Part shown: in pieces, positions 20,219 through 36,384 of the stretch | Layout of the letters: each line of letters opens with the position of its first letter | Position numbering within the stretch: the first letter of the stretch is position 1 | Assembly: GCF_011064545.1 (NCBI RefSeq) | Contig: NZ_JAAMFG010000028.1 | Span: 62,001 to 126,000 of the forward strand | Direction: 5' to 3' | DNA from: Wenzhouxiangella sp. XN24 | Lineage (GTDB): Bacteria > Pseudomonadota > Gammaproteobacteria > Steroidobacterales > XN24 | DNA: 64,000 bases | The notes under the pieces: generated by a model | Database searches by the model: none | The model's input: the letters and a program-made list of their open reading frames with translations, nothing else | What the model was told of the DNA's origin: nothing | Translations under genes and position numbers: made by a program

Positions 20219-20878
20219 TCAGGGTGCGACGGGCTCCGCCACGGACACCAGGAGAGAGGTGGGACGTCCCGCGCGAAGCAGTTCCAGGACGAAACTGTCC
20301 GCATCCGGCAGCGCCCTGAGTGCCGCCATGAAAGCCTCGGGCTGCCCGGCCGGCGCGCCATCGACGGCCACCACCAGGTCGTGAGGCTGCAGACCGGCCG
20401 CACTCACCGGGCTGCCGGGGTCGAGACGCGTCACGGCCCAGCCGATCACGTCTCCGGCCCGGCTCACCGGCACCAGGTCGATGCCCAGGGCGCTGGCCTG
20501 GGGGTTCTGCATGATCGCGCGCAGTCCGGCAGGCGGGAGCCGGACGCTGTGCATTGCGGGCCTGAGGTTTTCCGCCGCGTCCCCATGCGTGGGGCTGGCA
20601 GCACCGGCCGCGAGTCGCACCCGGCGTTCTGCCGCCCCGCACACGAGGCTGGCGCTGCTCGCATCGACCTGCAGGAGGCGGCAATCACCGACGAATTCGC
20701 CCGGCACGGTCCAGGCCTGGCCGGCTGCCGACTCCAGCAGCGCGGCCGCATGACCCGGCGTGACCAGGGTCGCTGCGAGCCGCGGCAGCGGCTCGGCGAG
20801 TGCCCCCCACGGCATGACCAGCCCGAGCGCCAGTCCCGCCAGCGCCGGGGCGCGCCGCTGGCGATCCCCCCTGGCCAT
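20219..20878 (-). CDS. GspC-like PDZ-domain protein of the envelope operon
   Basis: A 219-residue exported protein: a signal-peptide-like hydrophobic N-terminus ending ALAEPL, a central beta-rich region, and a C-terminal PDZ domain (LGIDLVPVSRAG, VTRLDPGSPVSAAGLQPHDLVVAVDGAP). The layout recalls GspC of type II secretion, but no other gsp gene is near. It is the seventeenth and last gene of the riboswitch-led operon; its ATG overlaps the AgmX-like stop (TGATG; a GTG one codon earlier is possible). I infer a periplasmic connector. Confidence 0.75.
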   Translation of the reverse strand: MARGDRQRRAPALAGLALGLVMPWGALAEPLPRLAATLVTPGHAAALLESAAGQAWTVPGEFVGDCRLLQVDASSASLVCGAAERRVRLAAGAASPTHGDAAENLRPAMHSVRLPPAGLRAIMQNPQASALGIDLVPVSRAGDVIGWAVTRLDPGSPVSAAGLQPHDLVVAVDGAPAGQPEAFMAALRALPDADSFVLELLRAGRPTSLLVSVAEPVAP

Positions 20879-21825
20879 CACGCCGGGAAGAACTCGATGG
20901 GCTTGGTGGTCGTCACGGTCGCCACGTCCTTGTCCTCGAAGCGGAACATTTTCACCCGCGCCACGAGCCTGCGTTCGAATTCCGGGTCGAGCAGTTCCGA
21001 GGACACCACGTTGCAGTCGGTCACCTGGCCATCGGGCGCGATGGTCAACTCGAGGACCAGCCGGCCCCGCAGCGTGGGATCGTTGCGCAACGCCCGGTTG
21101 TAGAGCGCGTAGATGGCCGCCTTGTTGCGATCGAAGACCAGTTCGATCTCCTCGCGACTGCGGGCATTCAGGCCGTCGCCGCCGCCGCTGCCGCCGCCTG
21201 CGGCCGTTCCATCGCCGCCGCCCGAAGGCGCGCTGACCTGCGTCACCGTCCGTCCGCCCAGGCCCGAGCCGCCCGTGTTGCGCGACAGCCCGGCCGTGTT
21301 GATACCGCCGCTGGCGCGCCCACCCTGCGCCGTGATGACGCTGCGCTCATTGTGCCGGGTCTCTCCGGCCCCGGCGGCCAGCCCGTCAGCGCTGGTGGCC
21401 GCAGCCACCGCATCGCTGGACCGCAGGTCGGCCAGTGTGTCGGCGAACGCCATGACGCCCTTGGTGGCCGCACGCTCGCGCGCACTGGGCACGGGCGGCG
21501 CGGGCGTCTCCGGTCTCGGATCCGGCACGGCGTCTGGCACCGCGGCCACTTTTTCCTCGACCACCGGTTGCGGCTCGGGCTCCGGTTCCGGCGCCGTCAC
21601 GGGGGGCGGCGGTGGCGGCGTGCGTTCGATCAGCAGGCGCGCATAGCGCTCCGGCACTTCCGGCGGCAGCAGGGAGTCACGCTCCGGGATCGGCAGCCAG
21701 GGCACGAGCAGGCCCAGCAACAGGGCCACCAGGGCCGTGCGGCCGGTGATGCGCCGAAAGCGCTGCTCCACGACCGGGTCCACGCTCCAGGGCAGCTCGG
21801 TCCAACGTATGGCGGTCGTCGTCAT
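20878..21825 (-). CDS. AgmX/PglI C-terminal-domain (TonB-like) protein
   Basis: 315 residues: a short cytoplasmic tail, one membrane helix around 30-46 (TALVALLLGLLVPWLP), a Pro/Glu-rich periplasm-spanning stretch (RTPPPPPPVTAPEPEPEPQP), a Gly-rich linker, and a C-terminal AgmX/PglI-type domain (AIYALYNRALRNDPTLRGR, LELTIAPDGQVTDC). Such proteins transmit force from ExbB/ExbD-type motors; Myxococcus GltJ (AgmX) in the gliding machine is the best-known relative. It directly follows the exb genes, fitting that role. Confidence 0.82.
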   Translation of the reverse strand: MTTTAIRWTELPWSVDPVVEQRFRRITGRTALVALLLGLLVPWLPIPERDSLLPPEVPERYARLLIERTPPPPPPVTAPEPEPEPQPVVEEKVAAVPDAVPDPRPETPAPPVPSARERAATKGVMAFADTLADLRSSDAVAAATSADGLAAGAGETRHNERSVITAQGGRASGGINTAGLSRNTGGSGLGGRTVTQVSAPSGGGDGTAAGGGSGGGDGLNARSREEIELVFDRNKAAIYALYNRALRNDPTLRGRLVLELTIAPDGQVTDCNVVSSELLDPEFERRLVARVKMFRFEDKDVATVTTTKPIEFFPA

Positions 21826-21835
21826 AAAGCCTCCC

Positions 21836-22330
21836 TCAGACAGCGTCCGTGCTGCGTTGCACGACGGCCAGCGAGACGCGCCCGTAGTCCGCGCGGGTGC
21901 AGGTCACCATGACCTTGCGCAGGAGGCGGTAGGGCAGGTCGCGATCACCGAGAATGGTCACCTCGGGAGACAAGGCCTCATCGGCCCGCAGGCGGCGTGC
22001 ACTCAGTTGCTCGAGCGCGGCAGCCAGCGCGGGAATGAACTCGGCCTCGGCCTCCATGACATCGGCCGTGATGGCGACCACTTCGCCCTGGACGAGAATC
22101 GCGTCGGTGCCGACGGTGACCACGACGGTTTCCCGCGGGGGCTGCTGTGCCATCGAATCGGGCATCTGCAACGATTTCGGCGTGGTGAGTTGCTGCACGT
22201 CGGAGGAGTTGACGAGCAGGAAGAACACCAGGATCGTGAAGATGTCCATCAACGAGACCAGGCTGAGCGGAGCCCCGCGCCGGCGCTTGTGGTGCGCCTC
22301 CATGCGGCGCGCGCGATGCGATGCTTTCAT
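21836..22330 (-). CDS. ExbD/TolR-family protein, second paralogue (membrane Asp kept)
   Basis: 164 residues with a basic N-terminus (HHKRRRGAP), one membrane helix SLMDIFTILVFFLLV that keeps the proton-carrying Asp of the ExbD/TolR family, and a periplasmic domain. It forms a proton channel with ExbB. Its start overlaps the stop of the first ExbD gene. One ExbB with two ExbD paralogues is also the AglR-AglQ-AglS composition of the Myxococcus gliding motor. Confidence 0.85.
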   Translation of the reverse strand: MKASHRARRMEAHHKRRRGAPLSLVSLMDIFTILVFFLLVNSSDVQQLTTPKSLQMPDSMAQQPPRETVVVTVGTDAILVQGEVVAITADVMEAEAEFIPALAAALEQLSARRLRADEALSPEVTILGDRDLPYRLLRKVMVTCTRADYGRVSLAVVQRSTDAV

Positions 22331-22827
22331 TTCCGACCTCCCGCCGGCAGCGGCGCGTCACCGATGGAGATATCCGGGAACAGCTCGGCTGAACCGTGCT
22401 CGACCCGGGCGACGCGGAGCGTATCCATGACGTCCACCAGGCGCTGGTAATCGATGTCCGGTTCGAGCAGGATCATCGCTTCCCGGGTATCCGGATGCCT
22501 GAGCTTCACCTGGGCCAGGAACTCGGACAGCGCCGCGTAATCGAAGCGGCCTTCGGCGTCGGCCTCGAAGCGCTGCAGCAGGCCGCTGCGCCGGTCGCCG
22601 ACCTCGAGCGCCGTCTCGCGGACGACGACCTCGAGATTGAGCCCGGTTTCCTCGGCCGCCGTGGTCTCCGCGCTCGGCCCGGGCAGGCTCAGCTCATGGA
22701 CGGCGATCCGCGAGAACACCGCCGTGATGAGCAGAAACGGGACCAGCACCACCATCAGGTTCATGAAGGCGGTGATGTCCAGTTCGCCCGGCTCGCGCTG
22801 TCGCCGGCGCCGCTTCAGCATGCGCAT
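22327..22827 (-). CDS. ExbD/TolR-family protein, first paralogue (Asp replaced by Asn)
   Basis: 166 residues: MRMLKRRRRQREPGELDITAF leads into the helix FMNLMVVLVPFLLITAVF. Where ExbD and TolR carry the essential membrane Asp, this protein has Asn (FMN versus the usual IDV or MDI). The periplasmic part is about 110 residues. I infer a structural rather than proton-conducting subunit paired with the second paralogue. The ATG at 22827, 1 nt after the exbB stop, is chosen; a start 11 codons earlier is possible. Confidence 0.83.
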   Translation of the reverse strand: MRMLKRRRRQREPGELDITAFMNLMVVLVPFLLITAVFSRIAVHELSLPGPSAETTAAEETGLNLEVVVRETALEVGDRRSGLLQRFEADAEGRFDYAALSEFLAQVKLRHPDTREAMILLEPDIDYQRLVDVMDTLRVARVEHGSAELFPDISIGDAPLPAGGRK

Positions 22828-22828
22828 C

Positions 22829-23488
22829 TCAGGCGCCCGTCGCCTTCGGCTGCGCGCCACCGGGTTCGGTCACGGCATTCAGGAACTTCACCGCGGCCAT
22901 CTCGAGGCTGTCGACGATTTCCGTGGTCTTGCTCATCAGCACGGTGTGCGCCAGCAGCAGCGGGATCGCGACCATCAGGCCGAACGCCGTGGTGTTCATC
23001 GCCACAGAAATACTCGCGGAAAGCATGTCGGCTTTCTCGGCCGGATTCGCCGCCGCGACGGCGGTGAAAGCGCGAATGAGCCCGATGATCGTACCGAGCA
23101 GGCCGAGCAGCGTGGCGATGTTCGCGAAGGTCGCCAGGTAATGGGTGCGCTTCTCGATCCTCGGCAAGGTCTCCAGCAGGCTCTCCTCCATGGCTTTCTC
23201 GACATCGTCGCGCCGCCGGGCCGTGCCGAGGCGCGCCAGCCCGTAGGACAGGATGTTGCCGATGGCCAGCTTGGAACGCCCGGCCACGGTCATCGCCTCC
23301 GTGTACTTGCCCGCCTTGACCATGGGCATCAGTTGCAGCCACAGCTTGCGGTTACTCGCTCCCGTCGCGGACAGGTAGACGTATCGCTCGATCGCGATCG
23401 CCGCCCCGAGCACGAGCACCACCACGATGGGGTACATGAACACCCCGCCCTGTTGAAAGAAACCGACTATCGTCGTGTAAACGTCCAT
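22829..23488 (-). CDS. ExbB/TolQ-family proton channel protein
   Basis: 219 residues with three membrane helices: GGVFMYPIVVVLVLGAAIAI near the N-terminus, and the MotA/TolQ/ExbB domain TFANIATLLGLLGTIIGLI plus TAFGLMVAIPLLLAHTVL. It should assemble as a pentamer around ExbD helices and use proton-motive force. The ATG at 23486-23488 follows GAGGAG. It is first of the exbB-exbD-exbD-agmX block inside the envelope operon. Confidence 0.9.
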   Translation of the reverse strand: MDVYTTIVGFFQQGGVFMYPIVVVLVLGAAIAIERYVYLSATGASNRKLWLQLMPMVKAGKYTEAMTVAGRSKLAIGNILSYGLARLGTARRRDDVEKAMEESLLETLPRIEKRTHYLATFANIATLLGLLGTIIGLIRAFTAVAAANPAEKADMLSASISVAMNTTAFGLMVAIPLLLAHTVLMSKTTEIVDSLEMAAVKFLNAVTEPGGAQPKATGA

Positions 23489-23491
23489 CAC

Positions 23492-23839
23492 TCACTCCTC
23501 CTCACTGACTTCCGGGCGACGTGTGCCGTCCGGGACTTGAAACTGTGCCTCGCGCGCTGCCTGCAGCGCCTGGCGCTGGCGAACCTCGCGGCGCATCACC
23601 AGCCGGTCGACAGGGGTCAGCGCCTCGTCCAGCAGGCTCCGCGCCGGGCGCCCAGGCAACTCGCCGGGCGGCGCCTTCTTCCACGGCACGATGGCCATGA
23701 TCCGCGGCAGCTCGCGATTGCCCGTCACCTTCGCGGTCTCCAGCTCGAGCCGTTCCTCTTCGGCGGGCAGCGACGCGGGTGCACCCCCTGCGGCGATGAG
23801 CAGGATGGTCAAAGCGATACATGGCTTGTGCAGGTTCAT
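23492..23839 (-). CDS. Small exported protein of unknown function
   Basis: 115 residues with a signal peptide (CIALTILLIAAGGAPASLPA) and a mature part of about 90 charged residues (LELETAKVTGNRELPRIMAI, VPWKKAPPGELPGRP). I recognise no domain. It starts on the ATGA overlap with the TPR lipoprotein gene and directly precedes exbB, so it probably acts with the motor in the periplasm. Confidence 0.7.
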   Translation of the reverse strand: MNLHKPCIALTILLIAAGGAPASLPAEEERLELETAKVTGNRELPRIMAIVPWKKAPPGELPGRPARSLLDEALTPVDRLVMRREVRQRQALQAAREAQFQVPDGTRRPEVSEEE

Positions 23840-24420
23840 CTCGTCGCCACCCGTGAATTGCTGCGCAGCTGCAGTTCGGCGACCCAGCGCGCGACCTGCT
23901 CGTCACCCTCGAGTCCGCCGACGAGATCGAGGTAGCGTTCGTAGCACTGCAGCGCCTCGGCGGGGCGACCCAGGTAGAGATCCAGCAGGACACCGCGATT
24001 CCGCCACGCCAGCGCGTAATCGGGTTGCAGCGCGAGCGCTTCGCGATAGGATGCATCCGCTTCCGCAAAGCGGCCCTGCCGGCGCAGCACGATGCCCAGT
24101 TCCGCATGCGCCACGGCATCGGCGGGCGCCATTTCCAGGACTTGCCTGAAGGCCGCCTCCGCGGCTTCGAGGCGGCCCGCGGCGGCGTGCAGGATGCCGA
24201 GGTTCAACAGCGGCCCGGACAGCTCCGGATAATCGGTCGCGAGGCCATCCAGCAATTGTTCGGCTTCGTCCGCAACCCCGGCTTGCAGGGCGTGTGTGGC
24301 GCGATCGAAACGCGGGTCTGCAGAGAGATCGTCGCCGCTTCCGGCGCCGGGCAAGGTGCCGCACCCGGCGAGCAGGAGCATCGCCATCAAGGCGGTTCCG
24401 GCCGGGGCCCGCCGGATCAT
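23836..24420 (-). CDS. TPR-repeat lipoprotein
   Basis: 194 residues: a lipoprotein signal (MAMLLLAGC, lipobox Cys) and about three tetratricopeptide repeats (LLNLGILHAAAGRLEAAEAAF, AHAELGIVLRRQGRFAEADA, AWRNRGVLLDLYLGRPAEAL). The start MIRRAPAG (24418-24420) is preferred over one 14 codons earlier because it gives a compact signal peptide. A likely scaffold on the inner face of the outer membrane, comparable in type to the TPR proteins of Agl-Glt machines. Confidence 0.8.
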   Translation of the reverse strand: MIRRAPAGTALMAMLLLAGCGTLPGAGSGDDLSADPRFDRATHALQAGVADEAEQLLDGLATDYPELSGPLLNLGILHAAAGRLEAAEAAFRQVLEMAPADAVAHAELGIVLRRQGRFAEADASYREALALQPDYALAWRNRGVLLDLYLGRPAEALQCYERYLDLVGGLEGDEQVARWVAELQLRSNSRVATR

Positions 24421-24439
24421 CGGCAGTCCCCGCAGGTCG

Positions 24440-27289
24440 CTAGCGCAGCAGTTCGACAACATGCTCTCCGGTCTCCTTGCGGTTCCAGCGGGCCGGCACG
24501 AGTTCCGCCAGCGTCTCGAAACTGGCGATCACCCAGCGGTCGTAAAGGCCGTCACGGGCGCGCGCCGCATTCGCCTCGTGGATGGCGATGGCGTCTTCCT
24601 CGAAGGGGAACGCCTGCTCCTCCAGGAGCATCACGTACTGTTCGAGCGTGTCCTCGTCCAGGTCGGGCGGCGGCGGTGAATCGAGCAACGCGCTCGCCAT
24701 CCCCCGATAGATCTCGGCCATCCTGAACGCGGCCTCGGTCGTCACCTCGGCCACCCCGTAGTCGGCCGCCGCACCCAGGCTGTCGACGGCGGCGCGCATC
24801 CGGGCCGCCTTCTCGGGCACGGTTTTTTCGAGAGGCAGGTCGAGCGCATAGCCCGTGAAGCGCTCGACGACCGGCATCGCCAGTTCCAGGGTCGCCGCGG
24901 CCGCCAGGGTCCGGCTGCGCGCCGTGGCCAGCTCGCCAGCCTGCTCGTGCGCGGTGACGATCGATTCCAGCCAACGCGTGCGCGCCGCGTGGTCCGCGCG
25001 CATGTCCGCACTCTCGGCGAGGCGGTGACGTGCTTCGAGGGCCGCATCCCAGGGTGTCGGAAAACGCTCGAGATAGTCGCGCAAGGCCTGGTCGGCGCGG
25101 GCGCTGTCGCCGGCCTCCGCGTACAGCTCGGCTGACTGCCACAAGGCGGCGCGGCGGACGTCTTCGCTTTCCCCGGCCAGGCGGGACACGGCGGCAAGCG
25201 CAGGGGCGGCGCGCTCCGCGTCACCCAGCTCGACCAGCGCCGCCGCCCGACTGACCTGCGCCGCCGCAGCCAGGGCGTGCTCCGGCCAGCCGCCGATGAA
25301 GCTTTCGTAGGCCGCGGCCGCGGCCGACCACTCCGCCGCACTGAACAGCAACGCAGCCGCATCGTACTGCCCGGTGGCGGCCACCGGGCTGGACGGCGCC
25401 GCCGCGGCGATTCTCTGGAAGTGCCCGACCGCGGCGGCGAGTTCGCCGCTTTCAGCAGCAGCCTGGCCCTGCCGGTAGATGCTCGCCGCCAGCCGTTCGC
25501 GCACCGTGGCGGCGAGTTGCGCCGCGGCGTCGTCGGGCCTGGCGCCAGGCTCGATCGCGACGGCCCGCTCGGCTTCCCAGGCCGCATAGTCTGCCTCCGC
25601 GAGCGCGAAAGCACCGAGGTCGAAGGCAGAGTGCGCACTGACCAGTAACGCGGCCGAGCGGATCGCAGCATCGACCGATTCCCGCGCCAGCACACGGGCG
25701 GAGGCTGAACGCGCCGCCTCGAGTTCGCCGAGCGTCATGAGGCGCTCGGCGGCCTCCAGTTCGACCTGCGGTGCGCGGGAGTCCGCGGCAAACGTGTCGG
25801 AAAACGCCAGCGCAGCCTCGACCACGGCGGCGGACGTGTCGGCGACGGACATGTCGACGGTGGCGGTTTCGGCGGCGACACCGCTATCTGCGGCAGCGGC
25901 CGAGGCGGCGATGTCACGCCGCGCGACCACCGCGGCATAACCGGCCTCCGCGGCGCCCGGATGCTCGCCGTAACCGTAGGCCACCGCCCAGTAGGCCTCC
26001 GCGGCCTCCGTGAGCGCCCCCGCGCCGTAGTGCAGCTCGGCCAGCAGGAAATGACGCTCCGGCGCCTCGACGGCTGCCGGGAACTCCTCGAGCCAGCGGC
26101 GATACCAGTCGGCCGCGACCGCCGCGCTGCCCTCCCCGGCCTGGAACGCGGCGTGGTGATGCGCGGCCAGGGTATCCAGGCTCAGCTTCAGGCGCTCCGC
26201 CACGCTCTCGTGAGCGGCAGGATCGCGGCCCTGCCACCACGCCCGGTGACGCGAGAAGCTCGCGGCAAACACCTCCATCGCGGCCAGCGCCTCGCCCATG
26301 AAGCCGCCGGCCGACAGCGCGTCGATGGCCTGGGCCTGCAACACCGGCGCCATATCGTCCAGCGGGGCACGCGCCGCCCACGCGCTGTACGCGGCGGCCG
26401 CATCCGTCCAGCGCTGCTGCTCGACATACATCGCGCCCAGCCGTTCATAGACACGCCAGGCCCAGTCAGGGTCGGGCGCATCCCGGCCATCGAGCCAGCG
26501 ATCCACCGCGGCGGCACCATCGAGGGCCGAGAAGCCGATCGCCATGGCGCGAAAACTGTCATCCACGAGCTCCCGCCCGGCACGATCCAGCTCTTCGAGA
26601 TCGGTCGTATCCAGGCGGTCACCGATGACGGCGGCGAACGGGGTGAAGCTCTGCTCGTGCAGCGATTGCTTGAACAGCGCCCAGCCGAGCTTGTAGCGCG
26701 ACTGTTCTGCGAAAGGGCCCGCCGGCTCGAGCGCGAGGGTCTCGAGATAGGCCTGCTCCGCGGCCATCCAGTCACGCGCCATGAAGCGCATCTCGCCGAT
26801 CCGGAACCAGGCCTCGGGGGCCAGCGACGACGCGGGGCGCGCGGCCACCAGCGACTCGAGCACCGCCTCAGCTTCCGCGTCGCGCCCTGCCATCGCCTCA
26901 GCGCGGGCCAGCTGGTAGCGCCAGTGATCCCGCCACCCGGCATCCGCGCCGCCGAGCGCGGAATCTCCCAGCAACTCGCGATACAGGCGGATCGCCTCCG
27001 CCAGGTCGGCGTCGGGGGATGCGCCCTCCATCAGCGCGGCCTCGGCAGACTCGAGGCGCAGGTCGGCAAGCCGACGCAATGCCGTCAGGCGCATCCCGGG
27101 ATCCGCTGCGGCGGGGGAATCCAGGAACGCGGCATAGGCGTCGGCTGCGGCCGCCGGATCGGCCGGGGGCGGGGCCGCATTCGGTGCCGTGAGCGTGGCG
27201 CCGATGTCCGCGACCGTGGCGGCGGCCGGCTCGGGGGCGCGCGCGAAGGGCCACAGGCCGGCCATGACGACGAGCGCCGCGACGCTCAC
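24440..27289 (-). CDS. Large Ala-rich TPR protein
   Basis: 949 residues with an N-terminal hydrophobic segment (VAALVVMAGLWPFARA), then helical repeats of TPR type over nearly the whole length (for example AWFRIGEMRFMARDWMAAEQ and QYDAAALLFSAAEWSAAAAA). Alanine is unusually abundant. The start is GTG, overlapping the upstream stop as GTGA. No enzymatic motif is visible; I infer a periplasmic scaffold for the Exb-driven complex. Confidence 0.8.
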   Translation of the reverse strand: MSVAALVVMAGLWPFARAPEPAAATVADIGATLTAPNAAPPPADPAAAADAYAAFLDSPAAADPGMRLTALRRLADLRLESAEAALMEGASPDADLAEAIRLYRELLGDSALGGADAGWRDHWRYQLARAEAMAGRDAEAEAVLESLVAARPASSLAPEAWFRIGEMRFMARDWMAAEQAYLETLALEPAGPFAEQSRYKLGWALFKQSLHEQSFTPFAAVIGDRLDTTDLEELDRAGRELVDDSFRAMAIGFSALDGAAAVDRWLDGRDAPDPDWAWRVYERLGAMYVEQQRWTDAAAAYSAWAARAPLDDMAPVLQAQAIDALSAGGFMGEALAAMEVFAASFSRHRAWWQGRDPAAHESVAERLKLSLDTLAAHHHAAFQAGEGSAAVAADWYRRWLEEFPAAVEAPERHFLLAELHYGAGALTEAAEAYWAVAYGYGEHPGAAEAGYAAVVARRDIAASAAAADSGVAAETATVDMSVADTSAAVVEAALAFSDTFAADSRAPQVELEAAERLMTLGELEAARSASARVLARESVDAAIRSAALLVSAHSAFDLGAFALAEADYAAWEAERAVAIEPGARPDDAAAQLAATVRERLAASIYRQGQAAAESGELAAAVGHFQRIAAAAPSSPVAATGQYDAAALLFSAAEWSAAAAAYESFIGGWPEHALAAAAQVSRAAALVELGDAERAAPALAAVSRLAGESEDVRRAALWQSAELYAEAGDSARADQALRDYLERFPTPWDAALEARHRLAESADMRADHAARTRWLESIVTAHEQAGELATARSRTLAAAATLELAMPVVERFTGYALDLPLEKTVPEKAARMRAAVDSLGAAADYGVAEVTTEAAFRMAEIYRGMASALLDSPPPPDLDEDTLEQYVMLLEEQAFPFEEDAIAIHEANAARARDGLYDRWVIASFETLAELVPARWNRKETGEHVVELLR

Positions 27290-29151: not shown

Positions 29152-29163
29152 GGCGCGGCCCGG

Positions 29164-29727
29164 CTACTCCCAGGCGCGGACGACGAAGTCGGGTTGCTGG
29201 AGCGCTTCGCTGTCGCTGAGCACCAACTCGAGTTGCTGCGGGCCGAGACCCTTCTCGAAATCCAGGCTGGTGGCGCGGCGATATTCCCGGCCCTGCGGTC
29301 CGCGTCCCGTGAGCACGGCAACGAGCTCGTGCGACCCGCTCTTGATGTTCCCGACATAAAGGCGATGCACGCCGCCGCGCCGCAAAGCGTCGAGCTCGCG
29401 CTCCGTGTAGAGATACTTCGCGACCTGTCGATCGTCGATCGAGAGCTCCACCGCATCGAGCGCGAAGTACTTGCCGACGTCGAGCGACAGGTACACCGCA
29501 ACCTGCGTGCTGGCCGGGAACAACAGCTCCTCTTCCAGCAGGAACAGCTCGCGATTGAGCGCCACGAGTTCCTGCTTGAGGGCCCGCAGCTCGGCGTCCG
29601 CCGCGGTCTCCTCGGCGTGCGCCGGAGGCAGCGCCGCCACGCAGGCGAAGCATGCCGCAAGCAGCACGATGCAGCCGCGCGCGCGCCGGCTAGAACCAGC
29701 CGCCGAACCAGACCTGGAATACATGGC
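29164..29727 (-). CDS. Small exported protein with an N-terminal coiled coil
   Basis: About 187 residues. The start ATG at 29727 gives a basic n-region (SSRRARG), a hydrophobic core (CIVLLAACFACVAALPPAHA) and a signal-peptidase site, at the price of 38 nt overlap with the DUF3570 gene; a GTG nearer 29665 is the alternative. The mature protein opens with a Leu-heptad stretch (ALKQELVALNRELFLLEEEL), followed by a beta-rich domain (VGNIKSGSHELVAVLTG). Family unknown to me. Confidence 0.65.
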   Translation of the reverse strand, partial: AMYSRSGSAAGSSRRARGCIVLLAACFACVAALPPAHAEETAADAELRALKQELVALNRELFLLEEELLFPASTQVAVYLSLDVGKYFALDAVELSIDDRQVAKYLYTERELDALRRGGVHRLYVGNIKSGSHELVAVLTGRGPQGREYRRATSLDFEKGLGPQQLELVLSDSEALQQPDFVVRAWE

Positions 29728-30805
29728 TGTCGAATCCATAGAGTTCACCATTACGGATGTCCGTGAAATCGTCGTAATCGAAACGGATGAGGTCATAGCC
29801 CAGGCTCACCGAGCTGCGGCCCAGGGGTCCGAGGCGCGGGCCGAAGTCCCAGGTGAGCCGCGCGCCCACGGTCTGGCTGTCGAAGGTGGACAGTTCCTTG
29901 TCCCGCGCCATGAACTCGAACTCCGCATCGAAGTCATCGGCATAGAAGGACGCCGCGTCCTGGGTCGTGTAGCGATAGGCGAGCTCGGCGGTGAGCCGCG
30001 GCGTGATCCGACGGGCGACGGCGGTCTCCAGCGTGTGCGCCTGGACCTGCCAGGTGTCCCGGTACCAGCGATAGCCGAGTTCCAGCGACGTGGCCTCCGC
30101 CACCATGCCGATACCCCGCAGGGCGACGGTATGACTGTTGCGGGCTCGGGGGTAACGCTCCGGGATCTGCGCCCCGAGGATGCGCGCCGAACGATAGGGG
30201 TTGTTGAGGAACCCGGTTTCGAGGATCGCCTCGTAATCCAGGCTGGCCACGATCCTGGAGGTCAGGACCTGCGACCAGCTGAACTGGTAGTTGTTACGTT
30301 CCACCTCGTCTTCGAAGTCCGTATCGACCCGCGAGACCACGTCGTCGCCGCGCACGTAGCCCAGCGTGAGCGTGCTCATGCCGCCGAAGAAATCCTGCGC
30401 CACGCTGAGGGCCCACGTGTCGGACTCGTAGTCGTTCTCCTCGCTGCGGATGTAGCCGACGCTCATCAGCGAATCGCCCTGCACCCAGTCGAGGCCGAGC
30501 CCGAGCTCCTCGCGCCGCTCCGTGTAGGGACTGGCACTCGTGACCACGTCGATCGATGCCGAGCTGATGCTGTCGACATAGTGGCTGGCCGAGGCGGAAA
30601 AATCGCCGGCGAAGGACTTGCGCAGGCTCAGCGCCGGTCCGGTGACCTGGACGCCGCCGCCGTCGTAGCTGTGGTACATGAGCTCGGCGAGATCCTCGGG
30701 CAGGGTGGCGGCGAAACCCACCACGCACGCCAGCAGCAGGACCGCTGCGAAGCCGCCGCGGACGCCGGCCCGCAAAGGCACAGGCACGGGCTCAGTTGCA
30801 GCCAC
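29690..30805 (-). CDS. DUF3570 outer-membrane beta-barrel protein
   Basis: 371 residues with a signal peptide (GGFAAVLLLACVVGFAA) and alternating aromatic/hydrophobic strands ending in Phe (FQVWFGGWF), the signature of an outer-membrane barrel. The segment YDGGGVQVTGPALSLRKSFAGDFSASASHYVDSIS is typical of DUF3570. The start is GTG, overlapping the DUF4266 gene by 14 nt. DUF4266-DUF3570 pairs with TlpA-like proteins recur in proteobacteria, often near the flavin transferase gene apbE, which is absent here. Confidence 0.85.
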   Translation of the reverse strand: MAATEPVPVPLRAGVRGGFAAVLLLACVVGFAATLPEDLAELMYHSYDGGGVQVTGPALSLRKSFAGDFSASASHYVDSISSASIDVVTSASPYTERREELGLGLDWVQGDSLMSVGYIRSEENDYESDTWALSVAQDFFGGMSTLTLGYVRGDDVVSRVDTDFEDEVERNNYQFSWSQVLTSRIVASLDYEAILETGFLNNPYRSARILGAQIPERYPRARNSHTVALRGIGMVAEATSLELGYRWYRDTWQVQAHTLETAVARRITPRLTAELAYRYTTQDAASFYADDFDAEFEFMARDKELSTFDSQTVGARLTWDFGPRLGPLGRSSVSLGYDLIRFDYDDFTDIRNGELYGFDSHVFQVWFGGWF

Positions 30806-31022
30806 AGCCGCCTCCCCCGCCGTCCGTGGCGCCGCGCCCGCCCTCGCGGACGTCGAACACGTGCTGCCGGTGCTTGTCCATCAATGCATTGCGCGAGAAG
30901 GACATCAGCGGGTCGGCGAGCGCCTCGCGTTCGAACGGCGCCACCCAGGGACTCGGGGCCGCGCATCCGCTCGCCGCGATGCAGATCGACACCAGGAACA
31001 GCTGTGCGGCACGGCGTCTCAT
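30792..31022 (-). CDS. DUF4266 small lipoprotein with a Gly-Cys-rich tail
   Basis: 76 residues: a lipoprotein signal (LFLVSICIAASGC), a conserved WVAPFEREALADPLMSF core, HVFDVREGGRGAT, and the C-terminal tail DGGGGGCGCN. The family is defined by this short layout and ending. The ATG at 31020-31022 is chosen because GGGAGG lies 7 nt upstream; a TTG two codons earlier overlaps the tlpA stop. It is always or nearly always coupled to DUF3570; the function is unknown. The tail cysteines could bind metal or form disulfides. Confidence 0.85.
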   Translation of the reverse strand: MRRRAAQLFLVSICIAASGCAAPSPWVAPFEREALADPLMSFSRNALMDKHRQHVFDVREGGRGATDGGGGGCGCN

Positions 31023-31024
31023 CT

Positions 31025-31561
31025 TCAATCCTCCCGCAGCAGCGCGCGGACTTCCTCGAGATAGAGCCGCTCCATGCCGGGCCGGTAGCCGTAATGGACG
31101 CTGCGCACGGTCCCGCTCCGATCGACCATGACCGTCATCGGCATCGCCTGGACGTCATAGAGCCGGCTCACGTCCTGGGTGTCGTCGAACAGCAGCGGGA
31201 AACTGACGCCGAGTTCCTCGGCGAGGCGCAGGGCCCGGGCGGAATCCTCGTCGATGTTCACCCCGAGCAGGGTGAAACCGGCCGGCTCATAGCGGGCAAA
31301 GATCTCTTCCAGCTGGGGCATCTCCTGCCGGCATGGACCGCACCACGTCGCCCAGAAGTTGATCATCACGACCTGGCCACGATGCTCCGACAGGCGCAGG
31401 TTCGGACCCGCAGCGCTGCGCAGGGCGAAGTCCGGCGCCTCGGCGCCGACGTTCACCGCGGGAGCGCTCGCGACGACGCCGGCGAGCCCGCCCATGGCCA
31501 GCAGGCTCGAGATCAGAAATAAACGCCGAGGCCAAGATTGATTTCGAAGTTGTGTTTCCAC
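31025..31561 (-). CDS. TlpA/ResA-like thioredoxin-fold protein
   Basis: 178 residues: an N-terminal anchor or signal (LFLISSLLAMGGLAGVVASA) and a thioredoxin domain with the active site WCGPC in FWATWCGPCRQEMP, then LLGVNIDED and the cis-Pro segment MPMTVMVD. Such proteins reduce disulfides outside the cytoplasm, for example in apocytochrome c maturation. The GTG at 31559-31561 overlaps the preceding barrel gene by 49 nt; a later start would destroy the signal segment. It probably keeps Cys residues of DUF4266 or the haem proteins reduced. Confidence 0.88.
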   Translation of the reverse strand: METQLRNQSWPRRLFLISSLLAMGGLAGVVASAPAVNVGAEAPDFALRSAAGPNLRLSEHRGQVVMINFWATWCGPCRQEMPQLEEIFARYEPAGFTLLGVNIDEDSARALRLAEELGVSFPLLFDDTQDVSRLYDVQAMPMTVMVDRSGTVRSVHYGYRPGMERLYLEEVRALLRED

Positions 31562-32172
31562 TCGTTTTCCCCGAGCAAGTCAGATTCGAAGAGGGTGTCC
31601 CGGGCTTCCAGCCGCAGGCTCAGCCAGTCGGTCGGCAACACCTTGAGACCGAAACCGAAGGCGTAACTGGTGCTGTCTCGATCGGCGAACTCCAGTCGCC
31701 CGGCGCCGAATTTCAGGTAGACGCCGCTGGTCCGTGCCCACCGTGTCCCGAGGAACACTTCCCCCGGCAACACCATCACGCCAACCGCGAGGTCGTAGGC
31801 CACCAGGTCCTCCTCCTCCGCATCGAAAAGCGGCGCGCCGATGCGACGAAAACTGGTGTCGCGCACGGACGAGCTGGCATAGCGACCCTCGAGAAAGACA
31901 TCCTCGGTAGCGTGGTAGGCGACGCGCAGGCCATAGACAGTCTCGGCGCCGAAGTCCTCGACCGAGTTGATGCCGGCGAACAGACCGATCTCCCAGTCCT
32001 CGGTGTCCACGGCCGGACGGATGATCTCCCGCCGGTCGAGGAGCGGATCGATGACGGCCGGCACCGGCCCCTCGACGGGTTCGTCTGCCGGAGGCGCGTC
32101 CCGCCATACGCTGCAACCGCCGGCGGTGCAGGCGGTGATCGCGAGAAGAAACAGGCGCAGTGCGGCTTGCAT
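31513..32172 (-). CDS. Outer-membrane beta-barrel protein with lipoprotein-type signal
   Basis: 219 residues. The N-terminus LRLFLLAITACTAGGCSVW carries a lipobox Cys. The rest consists of alternating strands (GLRVAYHATEDVFLEGRYAS, GVYLKFGAGRLEFADRDS) and ends NLGLGVYF with a terminal Phe. It fits the outer-membrane beta-barrel domain seen in small OmpA/OmpW-like barrels. It lies 9 nt after the SH3 barrel gene. Confidence 0.78.
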   Translation of the reverse strand: MQAALRLFLLAITACTAGGCSVWRDAPPADEPVEGPVPAVIDPLLDRREIIRPAVDTEDWEIGLFAGINSVEDFGAETVYGLRVAYHATEDVFLEGRYASSSVRDTSFRRIGAPLFDAEEEDLVAYDLAVGVMVLPGEVFLGTRWARTSGVYLKFGAGRLEFADRDSTSYAFGFGLKVLPTDWLSLRLEARDTLFESDLLGENEWKHNFEINLGLGVYF

Positions 32173-32181
32173 GGCTCGTCC

Positions 32182-32964
32182 TCAGAAGAACACCGAGAAT
32201 CCCAGCGTGATCTCGGTGAAGTCGTCGTTGTTGTTGATGTCCCGCGTGAGGACGTACTGGCGCACGTCGCCGCGCAGGATGAAGCGCCGTGTCAGCCAGG
32301 CCCGCACGCCGACACCGGCATTGCCAGCCCATTCATCGACCTTGACCGCGTCCACCAGCGTGCTCTTCGGCTCGTTGCTGATGCGCCCCGCGCCGATGCT
32401 GAAAAATGGCGTCACGCGGCCGTCGAGGAAGGGCAGCACCTGGATATTCGTGTGATAGGCGCTGGTGCTGGAGAAGCTTCCCGCGGCCTGCAGCAACTGG
32501 CCTTCCACGACGAAGTGCGGCCCGACCCGATAGCCGGCACGGAAACTGAACATGGGATCGCCGGAAAAATCTCCCGCGGCGAAACCGATCTCGAAGCGCC
32601 GGTCGCGCCATTGTTCCCGCCCGGCGCGCCCGAACTGCACGCGCTCGCCGCCCGGCCCCTGGCTGCCTTCGACGGTGTTCCGGTGCATCCAGCCGCGCTT
32701 GCCGTCCGCAGTCTCCACCTGGAGCCAGTCGGCCCGCTGGCGCAGCAGGGTGAACGCCTCCCCGCGGCTCACGATGTTGAACACCGGGTAGCCCCGTCCG
32801 GGGCCGGTGTGCATCTCGGCGTACGGCCGCGTGACCGTCAACCAGAGCCGGTCGTCCTCGCCGGCGGCTGCCGGGTCGGCGCACGCGAGGACCAGGAACA
32901 ACAAGGCCAGGGGCAGTGCGATGCACTGGAGGGGGTGGCTGGCGTGCCGGGCGCATGCGTGCAT
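32182..32964 (-). CDS. SH3-domain outer-membrane beta-barrel protein
   Basis: 260 residues: a signal peptide (LALLFLVLACADPAAAGE), a bacterial SH3 domain at about 38-95 (VTRPYAEMHTGPGRGYPVF, GEAFTLLRQRADWLQV, GKRGWMHRNTVEG), and a beta-barrel ending EITLGFSVFF. The SH3 part may bind peptidoglycan or a partner while the barrel sits in the outer membrane. It lies 3 nt after the preceding lipoprotein gene. Confidence 0.8.
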   Translation of the reverse strand: MHACARHASHPLQCIALPLALLFLVLACADPAAAGEDDRLWLTVTRPYAEMHTGPGRGYPVFNIVSRGEAFTLLRQRADWLQVETADGKRGWMHRNTVEGSQGPGGERVQFGRAGREQWRDRRFEIGFAAGDFSGDPMFSFRAGYRVGPHFVVEGQLLQAAGSFSSTSAYHTNIQVLPFLDGRVTPFFSIGAGRISNEPKSTLVDAVKVDEWAGNAGVGVRAWLTRRFILRGDVRQYVLTRDINNNDDFTEITLGFSVFF

Positions 32965-32967
32965 GGC

Positions 32968-33489
32968 TCAGTACCCGCACTCGGCCAGGGGCGGGGGGGT
33001 GCAGAAGCCGCAGCTGGCCGCCTCCTCGTCCTCGACGCGTACCGCGATCCAGTTGCGGATCGCGAGGTAGCACGGGTCCTCGACGTCGGGGAAGATGTCC
33101 CCTCCGGTGTGGGTGCCCGAGATCGAGAAGACGCCCTGCAGCGGCTCCAGCAACAGCTTGCTCTGGGCCGGGTTGTCGAGATTGGCGAAGGCCTTCGCCG
33201 AGAAGAAGTTGGCCATCATCTCCACCGAGCCGGGTTCGGCCTGCGGGAAGATCTTGAAGGCCCCGCCGGAACCGGCGCCGACGTCATGACAGCCGCTCGC
33301 CGCACAGGTCGTCTGCCCGGTGCGGCCGTTGATCACGGCATCCATGACGGGGTTTACACAGTTGCTGTAATCCGCGACGCACAGGGTGCCGCCCGTGGCG
33401 GACACCGGGGTATTGTCGACCTCGCCGCCGCACCCGCCCAGCAGGACGGCGGCGATCATCGCGAGCGAATAACACCCTGTGCTACGCAT
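32968..33489 (-). CDS. Lipoprotein with a CX4CH haem-like motif
   Basis: 173 residues: lipobox LLGGC, then a domain with CAASGCH at about residues 62-68, a CX4CH spacing known for some c-type haems, and a C-terminal Cys pair (SCGFCTPPP). NPAQSKLLLEPLQG resembles the haem-binding region of cytochrome c domains in HzsA-like partners. It follows the HzsA-like gene by 9 nt. I infer a mono-haem or disulfide-bearing partner; haem attachment is unproven. Confidence 0.7.
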   Translation of the reverse strand: MRSTGCYSLAMIAAVLLGGCGGEVDNTPVSATGGTLCVADYSNCVNPVMDAVINGRTGQTTCAASGCHDVGAGSGGAFKIFPQAEPGSVEMMANFFSAKAFANLDNPAQSKLLLEPLQGVFSISGTHTGGDIFPDVEDPCYLAIRNWIAVRVEDEEAASCGFCTPPPLAECGY

Positions 33490-33498
33490 AGGCCATTC

Positions 33499-36384
33499 CT
33501 AGGTCCCGCACTCGCCCGCGGCGATCCAGTCGAAGATCGCCTGCCACTCCGGCTGGTCCGGCGAAAGCACGGGCGTACCCGATGCGGGATCAGCAGGGTC
33601 CACGCCGATGCGCGGATGCGGCGGATCGTCGGCCTCGGTCGAAGTCGGACGGCGCAGCAGGGCATTGGCCTCCGGGTCGCAGACATCCGCCACCATCGTC
33701 ACCGAGACGTTGAAATCACCCTCGATGTTGCCGGTCAGCACATAGCGCGAAGAGCTGAAGCTGGCGTTCAACGGCTCGTCCGGCAGGGATGCCGTCCCCG
33801 TATTGCCGAAGGGCTGGTGACAGGACGCGCACTGCTCCATCAGCACGGGATGGACGGTGGCCGCGAAAACGCTCTCGGAGAGTCCCTGCAGGCCGCCGCG
33901 CACTTCGGAAAGCGCCCGGAAGCCGTCGTTGTCGGCGTCGTCGAAGGGGTCGTTGTAGTACTGCCCGCCGAGATCGATCCACTCGGCGACCAGGCGCAGC
34001 TCGCTCGCGTTCAGCATGGCGCTGTGATCGACCGTGGGCGGCTCGACGCGCTCGCCGCCGGCGCGCAGCGGCGCTTCGAAGAGCTTCGCCATCAACGCGC
34101 TGGCCCGGGCGCCGTCCCGCGAGCCGCCGCTGCTGACCAGCGGCGCCTCGCGCGCCAGTTCCAGCTCGCCATCGGGCCGCACGTTGATGGTCGGCAGGCC
34201 GGTGTCCGGATCGAGGATGGGGTCCCCGACCATGATCTCCTCGTAGGACTTCAGTCGCCCGGACCCCGAGGTCGTGCCACGCAGGTCGAGGCCCGCGGCG
34301 AGCGGATCCTCCGGGTCATCGCTCAAGTGGCAGCCGATACAGGTATCGGCGCCGCGGTCGGCCTCCCAGATCGGCTGCACATGGTCGGGATAGTTGATGA
34401 TCCCGTCCACCGGCGCGGGCACGCCCGGCGGCAGATCGGCATAGCTGATCAGCAAGGGCGGATCCGCGGGGCGGCCGGCCTGGACGGGATCCGTCCACAC
34501 GTCCTCGTACACGATATCGGCATCCAGCTCGAGCGCGGTCGGATCGAGCCGGGTCCGGGTCTCGGCCATGGATTCGCCGAGTTCGCCGGTCCAGTTCGCG
34601 TTCGGATGAAAGCCGGCGATCGGCGCCGAGTTCAACGCGCTGCCGCGCCGCGGCGAATGACAACCGTTGCATGTCCGGGTCTCGCCGGGGCGCACCTGCA
34701 GCCAGTTCGTGTGTACCTGGATCGCACGGCCGTGCGCATCCACCGCGACGACGCCGAGCGGCGTATCCGCCGGCACCTTGACCCGGAAGGAGCCATCCGG
34801 CTCGATCTCGGCGTAGCCGACGATCTGCTGCATCTCGAGGTTGGTCTCGCCGATCGCCTCGCGGGACACCCCGGGCGGCGTCGGCACGGCCTCGGTGACG
34901 CGTACGAAGCGTGCCGGTCGCTGGGCCGCGGTCGTCAGCGCGGGGTCCTTCAGCGTCATGAGATCGGCCACGGCACTGCGCGTGTCGTCCGGCGGCGGGG
35001 TGGTCATCGGAATGCTCTCGTCGCCGACGAGCATGCGCGCACCCATCAGGCCGAGGCCGTCGGTGTCATAGACGCTCTTCACGTTGAGTACGCCCATGCC
35101 CTCGGCCGCCAGTGCGGCGTCGAGCGGCTTGTCCGTAACGGTGTTCGGCGCCGGGCGCGCCTGGATCGCGATCGGGTCCGTGTAGGCCCAGCCTTCCTCC
35201 GGCAACGCGATCGGACGGAGGCTCTTGTTGGCGATATCGAACATGTAGACGCCATAGAGCGGCGGGCCCTCGACTTCTTCTTCGAGGCCGGTGACCGGGT
35301 CGAGCTCCATCTCGGGACGAAATGGCGACCAGCTGACCAGGGCCCGGTTCGTGCCGTCCCACAGCGGATAGGGGGTCGTGTAGCGGCCGAACTCGGAAAC
35401 GCCGCGACCCGTTTCCACCGGGAACAATGTCAACTGCTCCTGCCCCACCGCATCGGCCGCGGCGCCCGGCACGGGTTCTCGGGATTCGGCAAAATTGCGA
35501 ATATCCACCGCCATCAAGGCGCCACCCTCGCGGGTACCGGATAGCGGCATCAGCGAGGTCATGACGCGTCCGTCGGGCATTTCGCGCGGATGCAGAAAGC
35601 TGTTGCCCGGACTGAAGGCACCGTACTGGACGAAGATATTGGTGCCATCCGGGTTGGTGATGAACAGCGGGAAATGGTTGCGGTTGCCGACATGGTCCCA
35701 GCGCGCAAACAGGATTTCCCCAGTCGCGAGCACGGTGGGATTACGGTCATGGCTCTGGTTGAAGGAAATCTGCCGGATGTCCTCGCCGTCGGCGCCCATG
35801 ACATGCAAGGCAGCCACGCGCTCGCGCTCGTATTCGTCGCGGTAGGCATAAGGCTGGATGTTGCGCTCGGCCAGCAGCTCGCGGGATTTCTGCTGCCGGT
35901 TGGAACTGAACACGATGCGGCCGTCCGGCAGGTAGGCGGGGTCGATGTCGTCGCCCGCATTCGCGACCGCATCGTCGGCGATCAGGCGCCGCAGGCTGCG
36001 GCTCGGCAGGTCCAGTTCGAAGATGTTCCAGCTGGGGTTGCCGGGCCCCCGCATCGAGAACAGCACGCGCTCGCCGTCGTAAGACACCTCCGGATCCGAG
36101 ACGTCACCCTCGCCCTGCGTGAAGGGGGCGGTGAGGTTCTCCAGCGGCGCGCTGGGCGAAGACAGGTCCTTGAGCATCAGGTCGCCGCCGGCGGCGAAAT
36201 TGGCCGCATCGGTGGGATTGCCCAGCGCGGAGACCTGGCGCTTGGCGAACACGATCGGGAAATCCCCTTCCACCACGATCGCGGACGAGACGCTTTCCTC
36301 TTCGCCGCCGCAGCCCCCCAGGGCCAGCAGCGAAAACGAAAGCAATGCAGAGACGGTCAGCTTGTATCCGTTGGCCCCAGCCAT
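33499..36384 (-). CDS. HzsA-like multihaem lipoprotein with propeller repeats
   Basis: 961 residues: a lipoprotein signal (LLSFSLLALGGC), a PD40/TolB-like propeller region (YLPDGRIVFSSNRQ, YDGERVLFSM), a middle domain of hydrazine-synthase-alpha (HzsA) type, and three CXXCH motifs: CNGCH near 572, CIGCH near 681 and CASCH near 854. Homologues occur in many non-anammox bacteria, so the name describes fold, not activity. The ATG at 36382-36384 with GAGGGGGG upstream is chosen over a start 31 codons earlier. It is the first gene after the riboswitch. I infer an outer-membrane or periplasmic electron carrier. Confidence 0.8.
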   Translation of the reverse strand: MAGANGYKLTVSALLSFSLLALGGCGGEEESVSSAIVVEGDFPIVFAKRQVSALGNPTDAANFAAGGDLMLKDLSSPSAPLENLTAPFTQGEGDVSDPEVSYDGERVLFSMRGPGNPSWNIFELDLPSRSLRRLIADDAVANAGDDIDPAYLPDGRIVFSSNRQQKSRELLAERNIQPYAYRDEYERERVAALHVMGADGEDIRQISFNQSHDRNPTVLATGEILFARWDHVGNRNHFPLFITNPDGTNIFVQYGAFSPGNSFLHPREMPDGRVMTSLMPLSGTREGGALMAVDIRNFAESREPVPGAAADAVGQEQLTLFPVETGRGVSEFGRYTTPYPLWDGTNRALVSWSPFRPEMELDPVTGLEEEVEGPPLYGVYMFDIANKSLRPIALPEEGWAYTDPIAIQARPAPNTVTDKPLDAALAAEGMGVLNVKSVYDTDGLGLMGARMLVGDESIPMTTPPPDDTRSAVADLMTLKDPALTTAAQRPARFVRVTEAVPTPPGVSREAIGETNLEMQQIVGYAEIEPDGSFRVKVPADTPLGVVAVDAHGRAIQVHTNWLQVRPGETRTCNGCHSPRRGSALNSAPIAGFHPNANWTGELGESMAETRTRLDPTALELDADIVYEDVWTDPVQAGRPADPPLLISYADLPPGVPAPVDGIINYPDHVQPIWEADRGADTCIGCHLSDDPEDPLAAGLDLRGTTSGSGRLKSYEEIMVGDPILDPDTGLPTINVRPDGELELAREAPLVSSGGSRDGARASALMAKLFEAPLRAGGERVEPPTVDHSAMLNASELRLVAEWIDLGGQYYNDPFDDADNDGFRALSEVRGGLQGLSESVFAATVHPVLMEQCASCHQPFGNTGTASLPDEPLNASFSSSRYVLTGNIEGDFNVSVTMVADVCDPEANALLRRPTSTEADDPPHPRIGVDPADPASGTPVLSPDQPEWQAIFDWIAAGECGT

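Follow-up and report, generated by a model that had tools for sequence, protein, structure and literature searches.

The window analysed here is a stretch of 64,000 nucleotides from Wenzhouxiangella sp. XN24 (contig NZ_JAAMFG010000028.1, positions 62,001 to 126,000 of the forward strand), and the subject of this report is a cluster of 17 genes within it (g01–g17; Table 1) that joins haem, thiol, and outer-membrane proteins to a motor of the ExbB/ExbD type. The 17 genes, each an open reading frame, lie on the minus strand from 36384 to 20219, and the spacing between them is -49 to +12 nt wherever both ends are certain, which bears out the tight packing with overlaps or short gaps described in the original prediction, made from the sequence alone. 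The start of g08 is ambiguous (29739 or 29724), and either position would overlap g07. The genes comprise an outer module (g01 and g03–g07) and a core module (g08–g16), and a third module, c1-c0-c3, occurs in many related loci. Family searches gave no match for g02, g08, or g12.

Table 1. Genes of the cluster, with positions given in the window
Gene	Product	Position	Strand	Remarks
g01	HzsA-like lipoprotein	33499..36384	-	961 aa; lipobox read from sequence
g02	Lipoprotein	32968..33489	-	173 aa; one CX4CH motif (CAASGCH)
g03	SH3 domain and small outer-membrane beta-barrel (OMP_b-brl)	32182..32964	-	family matches
g04	Outer-membrane beta-barrel, lipobox-like start	31513..32172	-	TIGR04565 127.9 bits (cut-off 60)
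g05	Periplasmic thioredoxin-like protein, TlpA/ResA type	31025..31561	-	AhpC-TSA/TlpA family match
g06	DUF4266 lipoprotein	30792..31022	-	76 aa; C-terminal CGCN; DUF4266 2.8e-18
g07	DUF3570, predicted outer-membrane barrel	29690..30805	-	106 bits (cut-off 25)
g08	Conserved secreted protein	29164..29724	-	signal, long helix, Ig/transthyretin-like sandwich
g09	TPR-like secreted protein	27286..29151	-	621 aa; TPR_16 below cut-off; position conserved
g10	TPR protein, BamD/YbgF-like repeats	24440..27289	-	949 aa; TPR_6 and YfiO above cut-off
g11	TPR lipoprotein	23836..24462	-	Tgl/GltE-like, below cut-offs
g12	Conserved secreted protein	23492..23839	-	115 aa
g13	ExbB/TolQ-type proton channel subunit	22829..23491	-	MotA_ExbB
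g14	ExbD paralogue 1	22327..22860	-	Asn34 replaces membrane Asp
g15	ExbD paralogue 2	21836..22330	-	Asp29 kept
g16	TonB-like transducer	20878..21825	-	AgmX/PglI C-terminal domain 63.9 bits (cut-off 40)
g17	PDZ protein, GspC-like	20219..20881	-	matches below cut-offs

The redox and Exb modules co-occur throughout the class, as judged by searches of the same 276 gammaproteobacterial genomes with g08, the HzsA-like protein, c0 (a lipoprotein of the third module), and DUF3570. Strong matches were defined as at least 200 bits for g08 (38 of 61 matching genomes), at least 359 bits for the HzsA-like protein (41 of 44 genomes; three at 43–64 bits were dropped), and at least 467 bits for c0 (36 of 40 genomes; G057, G069, G111, and G222, at 45–118 bits, were dropped). 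Strong g08 and HzsA-like genes were found together in 36 genomes belonging to 23 families, g08 only in 2, HzsA only in 5, and neither in 233 (Fisher p 2.7e-37, uncorrected for kinship). The combination of a motor with haem and thioredoxin parts, to which the original prediction had drawn attention, is therefore real. When all g08 matches were counted, the corresponding numbers were 40 with both, 21 with g08 only, and 1 with HzsA only; the 200-bit line separates the kinds of g08 imperfectly, because G089 (150 bits) and G159 (199 bits) are HzsA-linked. The two genes lay within 9 kb of each other in 26 of the 36 double carriers, at 17 and 23 kb in two, and on different contigs in eight. In seven of these eight genomes, no HzsA above 35 bits was detected in the 9 kb fetched around g08; in the eighth (G096), g08 lies 550 bases from the contig start, and the separation may be an assembly break. 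Four of the five HzsA genomes without a strong g08 contain a weaker one. Of the 41 HzsA genomes, 35 have a strong c0 gene, compared with 1 of the 235 others. In 36 of these 41, DUF3570 and HzsA are no more than 6.5 kb apart, a count based on 49 rows comprising a divergent DUF3570 class delimited by eye and one canonical row. Members of the divergent class without HzsA (G016, G069, G117, and G196) all occur in genomes with a g08 match; two similar-scoring rows were left out, one from a genome with a weaker g08 and no HzsA (G123) and one from a genome with neither (G085).

The neighbourhoods of the g08 relatives show the same association. Scanning a 12-row g08 alignment over genome contigs confirmed at least 540 relatives, the best 80 of which were made into loci; two without a g08 gene call (L096 and L129) were left out of the analysis, and 24 of the other 78 were dropped because they had <5 kb upstream, leaving 54. 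Some of the 80 loci come from the same species as the genomes described above, many carriers are metagenome-assembled genomes, gene calls in the relatives are heuristic, and the profiles were built from members. Upstream of g08, 51 of the 54 loci contain HzsA, a small barrel, or DUF3570 (50 with a match of at least 60 bits), and 45 contain HzsA at 100 bits or more; 19 of the 51 are co-directional, as in the window, and 32 are divergent. The exceptions are L075, L125, and L139, the last of which has c1, c0, and c3 instead. The full cassette occurs in the window's order in L049, L053, L055, L057, and L058, and L056 starts inside the cassette. In L048, an ApbE gene lies between the halves, and g02 and g17 are lacking; in L060 and L062, ApbE is accompanied there by a second TlpA-like gene, and in L061, the region with ApbE and a second TlpA-like gene also contains a TonB-dependent receptor. 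Eight loci have the first half without a nearby Exb half (L041, L042, L045, L047, L050, which meets a contig end, L051, L052, and L059); two of these genomes, G029 and G012, were searched for g08, and both have it elsewhere. L166 (genome G016) is rearranged, with the core and a TlpA-like gene on one strand and g03, g04, a TlpA-like gene, and DUF3570 on the other; no HzsA was found in this genome at E <= 1e-10. In a phylum-wide search, g08 was found in 12 of 299 genomes, all 12 in the window's class, the share of the 299 from other classes not being stated. The best match among the named genomes listed was in the gammaproteobacterium Thioalkalivibrio sp. XN8, and the named carriers include two Halieaceae strains. 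Pseudohalioglobus lutimaris HF004 (L072) and Mangrovimicrobium sediminis SAOS 164 (L071) are named strains with the divergent arrangement.

The core has a tandem of one ExbB-type gene and two of the ExbD type. The motor families score above their curated cut-offs, and the genes g13, g14, and g15 were found downstream of g08 in 43, 41, and 43 of 48 relatives, respectively. In alignments in which some loci represent the same species, the membrane Asp of g15 was retained in all 89 sequences, including those of standalone cores, and the matching site in g14 was occupied by Asn in 67 of 87 sequences, Asp in 19, and Ser in 1, suggesting that one ExbD of the motor may carry protons and the other be silent. 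The transducer g16 passed the AgmX/PglI model (NF033768) and scored only 18.9 bits with the full GltG model (cut-off 650). Three TPR-like genes are in place, of which g11 scored 48.5 bits with GltE (cut-off 225) in a comparison made with models only, not with M. xanthus sequences. The likeness to AglRQS-Glt pointed out in the original prediction is supported by the ExbB, the two ExbD proteins, and the AgmX/PglI domain. The predicted structure of g08 consists of a signal, a long helix, and a sandwich with a block of pLDDT mostly 95–98. Foldseek identified no known fold with a function for g08 at E <= 0.001, and the best VIA-align match (Z 9.4, to PepT2, with about 8 to transthyretin-like sandwiches) reflects an arrangement too common to assign a function.

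Luciano et al. (2011; PMC3169522) described a gammaproteobacterial 'core complex' (gltC, D, E, G, and aglR, Q, S), related to the Agl-Glt/Nfs systems of Myxococcus, which was left 'of unknown function' in the Gammaproteobacteria. Both the core complex and the window's cluster group together one ExbB, two ExbD proteins, TPR proteins, and an AgmX-type transducer, and both include a gene without a Myxococcus homologue (PMC3169522). The Exb half (g08–g16) fits this complex. Unlike the core complex, the window's core is joined to an HzsA-like protein, small barrels, TlpA, DUF4266, and DUF3570; no haem or thiol genes are named in the passages from PMC3169522, and the term 'cytochrome' occurs 0 times in that paper. 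In M. xanthus, the Agl-Glt gliding machine and the Agl-Nfs spore-coat machine each combine an ExbBD-type motor powered by protons with an envelope module that can be exchanged (PMC3858216); their cargo is polysaccharide, whereas the window's system has haem and thiol proteins instead.

The outer module contains a second recognisable unit. Clusters of DsbD/thioredoxin, DUF4266, DUF3570, and ApbE associated with flavinylation were reported by Meheust et al. (2021; PMC8238504), and they share with the window's cluster a thioredoxin-like protein, DUF4266 with a C-terminal CXC, and DUF3570. The statement in the original prediction that the system could not be named thus needs correcting for both halves, because the Exb half fits the core complex (PMC3169522) and TlpA, DUF4266, and DUF3570 form a module already known in linkage with ApbE (PMC8238504). 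The window's cluster differs from the published clusters in its altered flavin motifs, the lack of ApbE in the operon, the linked motor, and lower DUF3570 scores (about 80–155 bits near HzsA or g08, and up to 448 for other copies). The DUF3570 Pfam model was matched in 24 of 39 genomes. The structural model of the window's DUF3570, based on a 25-row alignment, has 16 long strands (pLDDT 85.6, pTM 0.79), and all 50 PDB matches listed for it are outer-membrane barrel entries by title, including chain B of the Mtr complex 6r2q, which we take to be MtrB. Its C-terminus, GGWF, has the aromatic end typical of barrels, and we predict that the protein is a 16-strand outer-membrane beta-barrel. The motifs SSAS (81–84) and TSAS (89–92) lie in or beside the loop between strands 3 and 4 (strands 69–82 and 94–109, with low confidence at 88–91); if both termini are periplasmic, which is the usual case, this loop would face outward. 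In the MtrCAB porin-cytochrome conduits, an outer-membrane barrel likewise adjoins haem lipoproteins, but the window's barrel has 16 predicted strands and no multihaem plug was seen; that the DUF4266 tail serves as the plug is a guess.

The sole PDB sequence match of g01, and also of its profile, is 5c2v_A, the alpha subunit of hydrazine synthase (HzsA), raising the question of whether g01 is a working subunit of such an enzyme. It matches HZS_alpha (69.6 bits, cut-off 26.6) and has CXXCH motifs at residues 572, 682, and 852, together with a PD40 match at residues 173–198 of a longer 992-aa frame. In the profile alignment with 5c2v_A, both haem motifs (two CXXCH) correspond in the same order, and the middle domain also aligns. 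The discovery of hzs-like genes in Planctomycetota and KSB1 genomes, from which other authors proposed a broader enzyme family (PMC10732223), can be counted in the same direction. However, g01 scored only 54.7 bits with the HzsA equivalog model NF052339 (cut-off 800), family searches matched no HzsB or HzsC among the operon genes, and the Tyr eight residues past the first Cys in 5c2v was replaced in all 18 aligned HzsA-like relatives, so that hydrazine chemistry is unsupported and a role as a hydrazine synthase subunit is scarcely credible. The lost residue is presumably the ligand Tyr591 of 5c2v. Compared with that subunit, the window's variant has an additional C-terminal haem site, and this extension is present in 6 of the 18 aligned sequences.

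The haem proteins accompanying HzsA differ between loci. In many divergent loci, c1, c0, and c3 lie shortly before the core in the same direction: c0 is a LamG-cytochrome lipoprotein with two invariant CXXCH sites; c1 has one invariant CXXCH, with PSD2 in 8 and PSCyt2 in 2 of 17 members; and c3 is a conserved family of about 540 aa with a Tat-like start (L062:53-1801, L084:5719-7332, and kin), for which Pfam gave only a TAT signal in 1 of 17. By eye, c3 presumably resembles the DUF1501 group, a likeness that no search result backs. A search of the window's genome did not find c0, and c1 and c3 were absent from 12 of 14 genomes searched, including that of the window (exceptions, G077 and G226), these genomes having been picked mostly for carrying the window's variant. 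Among the best 80 relatives, g02 occurred in 13 loci, all of which contain g01 and none of which showed c0, c1, or c3 in the fetched stretch; g17 was present in 12 loci, and g02 accompanied it in 10 of these. The window's variant carries the C-terminal haem extension of HzsA and g02 instead of c0, c1, and c3, and in our view c0-c1-c3 on the one hand and g02 with the HzsA extension on the other are interchangeable sets of haem cargo.

From the parts, their order, the predicted barrel, and the class-wide co-occurrence of the modules, we propose, with about an even chance of being right, that the genes work as a single functional system: an envelope-spanning machine of the Agl-Glt/Nfs 'core complex' type, powered by protons, with a redox-active outer-membrane and surface module. 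In this system, the TonB-like AgmX transducer would be set in motion by ExbB and the two ExbD paralogues at the expense of the proton gradient, and the periplasmic g08–g12 scaffold would relay the force to the small barrels and the TPR lipoprotein of the outer membrane. There the force would drive or remodel the surface HzsA-like lipoproteins, and in most relatives the LamG-cytochrome, as the cargo on which the machine works. In parallel, TlpA might hand electrons or disulfides to the CXC tail of DUF4266, from which they would reach the haem lipoproteins by way of the DUF3570 barrel, either through it or across it; TlpA, DUF4266, and DUF3570 would act as a source or a sink of electrons at the outer membrane. 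We infer the force transmission from the family kinship of the motor, and the electron path from the flavinylation clusters (PMC8238504) and the barrel model; the direction of electron flow, the exposure of the haem proteins at the surface, and their substrate are proposed in the same conditional sense. Within these limits, the suggestion in the original prediction of a proton-driven surface redox or secretion apparatus still belongs to the leading class of explanations, its electron flow, secretion, and force being conjectural. A bolder version of this reading, in which the cluster represents a new class of envelope machine with a proton-powered ExbBD motor acting mechanically on a thiol-(flavin)-haem relay across the outer membrane, and in which the core complex of the gliding and spore-coat machines originally served surface redox chemistry rather than movement, is speculative and probably goes too far.

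Several observations weigh against a single redox machine. Flavin acceptor motifs of DUF3570 take the form of two [S/T]GA[S/T] (PMC8238504), but both motifs of the window's protein carry Ser for Gly. Gly is kept at one motif in 6 of 23 rows of this class of DUF3570. No ApbE is encoded in the operon, and the genome's single ApbE is on another contig; therefore, the flavin step may be missing here. ApbE lies upstream of g08 in 12 of the 54 loci, and its presence does not track intact motifs: relatives with SSAS (L048, L060, and L062) have ApbE, and loci with SGAS (L041, L050, and L052) show none in the fetched stretch, L050 being cut by a contig end. No more than 21 of the 54 loci had DUF3570 itself within reach, and in G068, which has HzsA, the searches found neither g08 nor DUF3570. 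Furthermore, the core occurs alone. Twenty standalone loci (L146–L165), picked from weaker g08 rows (117 to 159 bits for the fetched ones) with no HzsA on the same contig, showed none of g01, g03, g04, g07, c0, c1, and c3 within 7–10 kb upstream; because of the way in which the loci were chosen, the absence of HzsA is by choice, whereas that of g03, g04, and g07 is not. The motor thus does not depend on the redox module. The genomes of 10 of the 20 have an HzsA gene as well, so the core exists as a duplicated machine, both with and without the redox module, which fits the modular picture in PMC3169522. On a g10 tree (96 rows, quick method), the redox-linked labels clustered, with 14 changes compared with a mean of 29.1 in shuffled labels and none of 500 shuffles as low. 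A single clade of redox-linked cores was nevertheless rejected, with 10 changes between redox-linked and standalone labels. In these labels, L169–L172, L174, and L176 were called standalone though their genomes hold HzsA elsewhere, and L173 was called redox-linked on a 35-bit match only, so 'redox-linked' here means roughly 'linked'.

These standalone cores also bear on the question of whether the two halves are chance neighbours or unrelated operons that hitch-hike together. The original prediction would have been overturned by halves that occur separately elsewhere; they were found together in a large set of carriers, while the Exb half also occurs alone in the 20 loci. Either half has kin without the other, as the flavinylation clusters illustrate (PMC8238504). 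The co-presence nevertheless extends across families, persists in the eight split-contig genomes, and holds over two gene arrangements; a merely local association is rejected, and chance or hitch-hiking is largely refuted and very improbable. The kinship of the core complex and the TPR and barrel parts (PMC3169522) could be taken as signs of a gliding motility machine, which we consider quite unlikely here.

Two further alternatives assign the motor a different task. TlpA-type proteins are classical partners of cytochrome c maturation, and the cluster could be a surface assembly machine, in which the motor exports or places the haem lipoproteins, and TlpA, DUF4266, and DUF3570 serve their maturation by reducing thiols for haem attachment. 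This is the strongest competitor, possible but the less probable choice. The occurrence of the same core with different haem sets, either c0-c1-c3 or g02 with the HzsA extension, agrees with it, as does the modular cargo logic of Agl-Glt and Agl-Nfs, the latter of which moves spore-coat polymer (PMC3858216); on the other hand, it leaves the 12 loci with ApbE and the DUF3570 barrel unexplained. The other alternative is a TonB-like uptake or surface processing of a polymer, such as a polysaccharide, which the LamG, propeller, and Tat proteins would bind or oxidise while the motor opens a barrel for import. The LamG domain of c0 and the TonB-like C-terminal domain of g16 point in this direction, but a TonB-dependent receptor is not constant (one in L061, and a receptor-like neighbour cluster in five loci by eye) and no glycoside hydrolase family was matched in the scanned proteins (one c0, 17 c1, and 17 c3), making this explanation unlikely.

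To our knowledge, there is no earlier case of an ExbBD motor tied to an outer-membrane haem and thiol module, and no description of the joined motor and redox system was recognised in the literature searched, subscription papers and preprints being outside its scope. The partners that accompany the core most constantly in one large set of carriers are now identified as redox and outer-membrane proteins, providing a concrete lead on the role of a long-unexplained gammaproteobacterial motor related to the myxobacterial gliding and sporulation machines.

A scan for promoters and terminators gave a number of sites not above that of shuffled controls. The cluster is flanked downstream by an MscS-type channel gene and upstream by divergent LemA and M48 peptidase genes.

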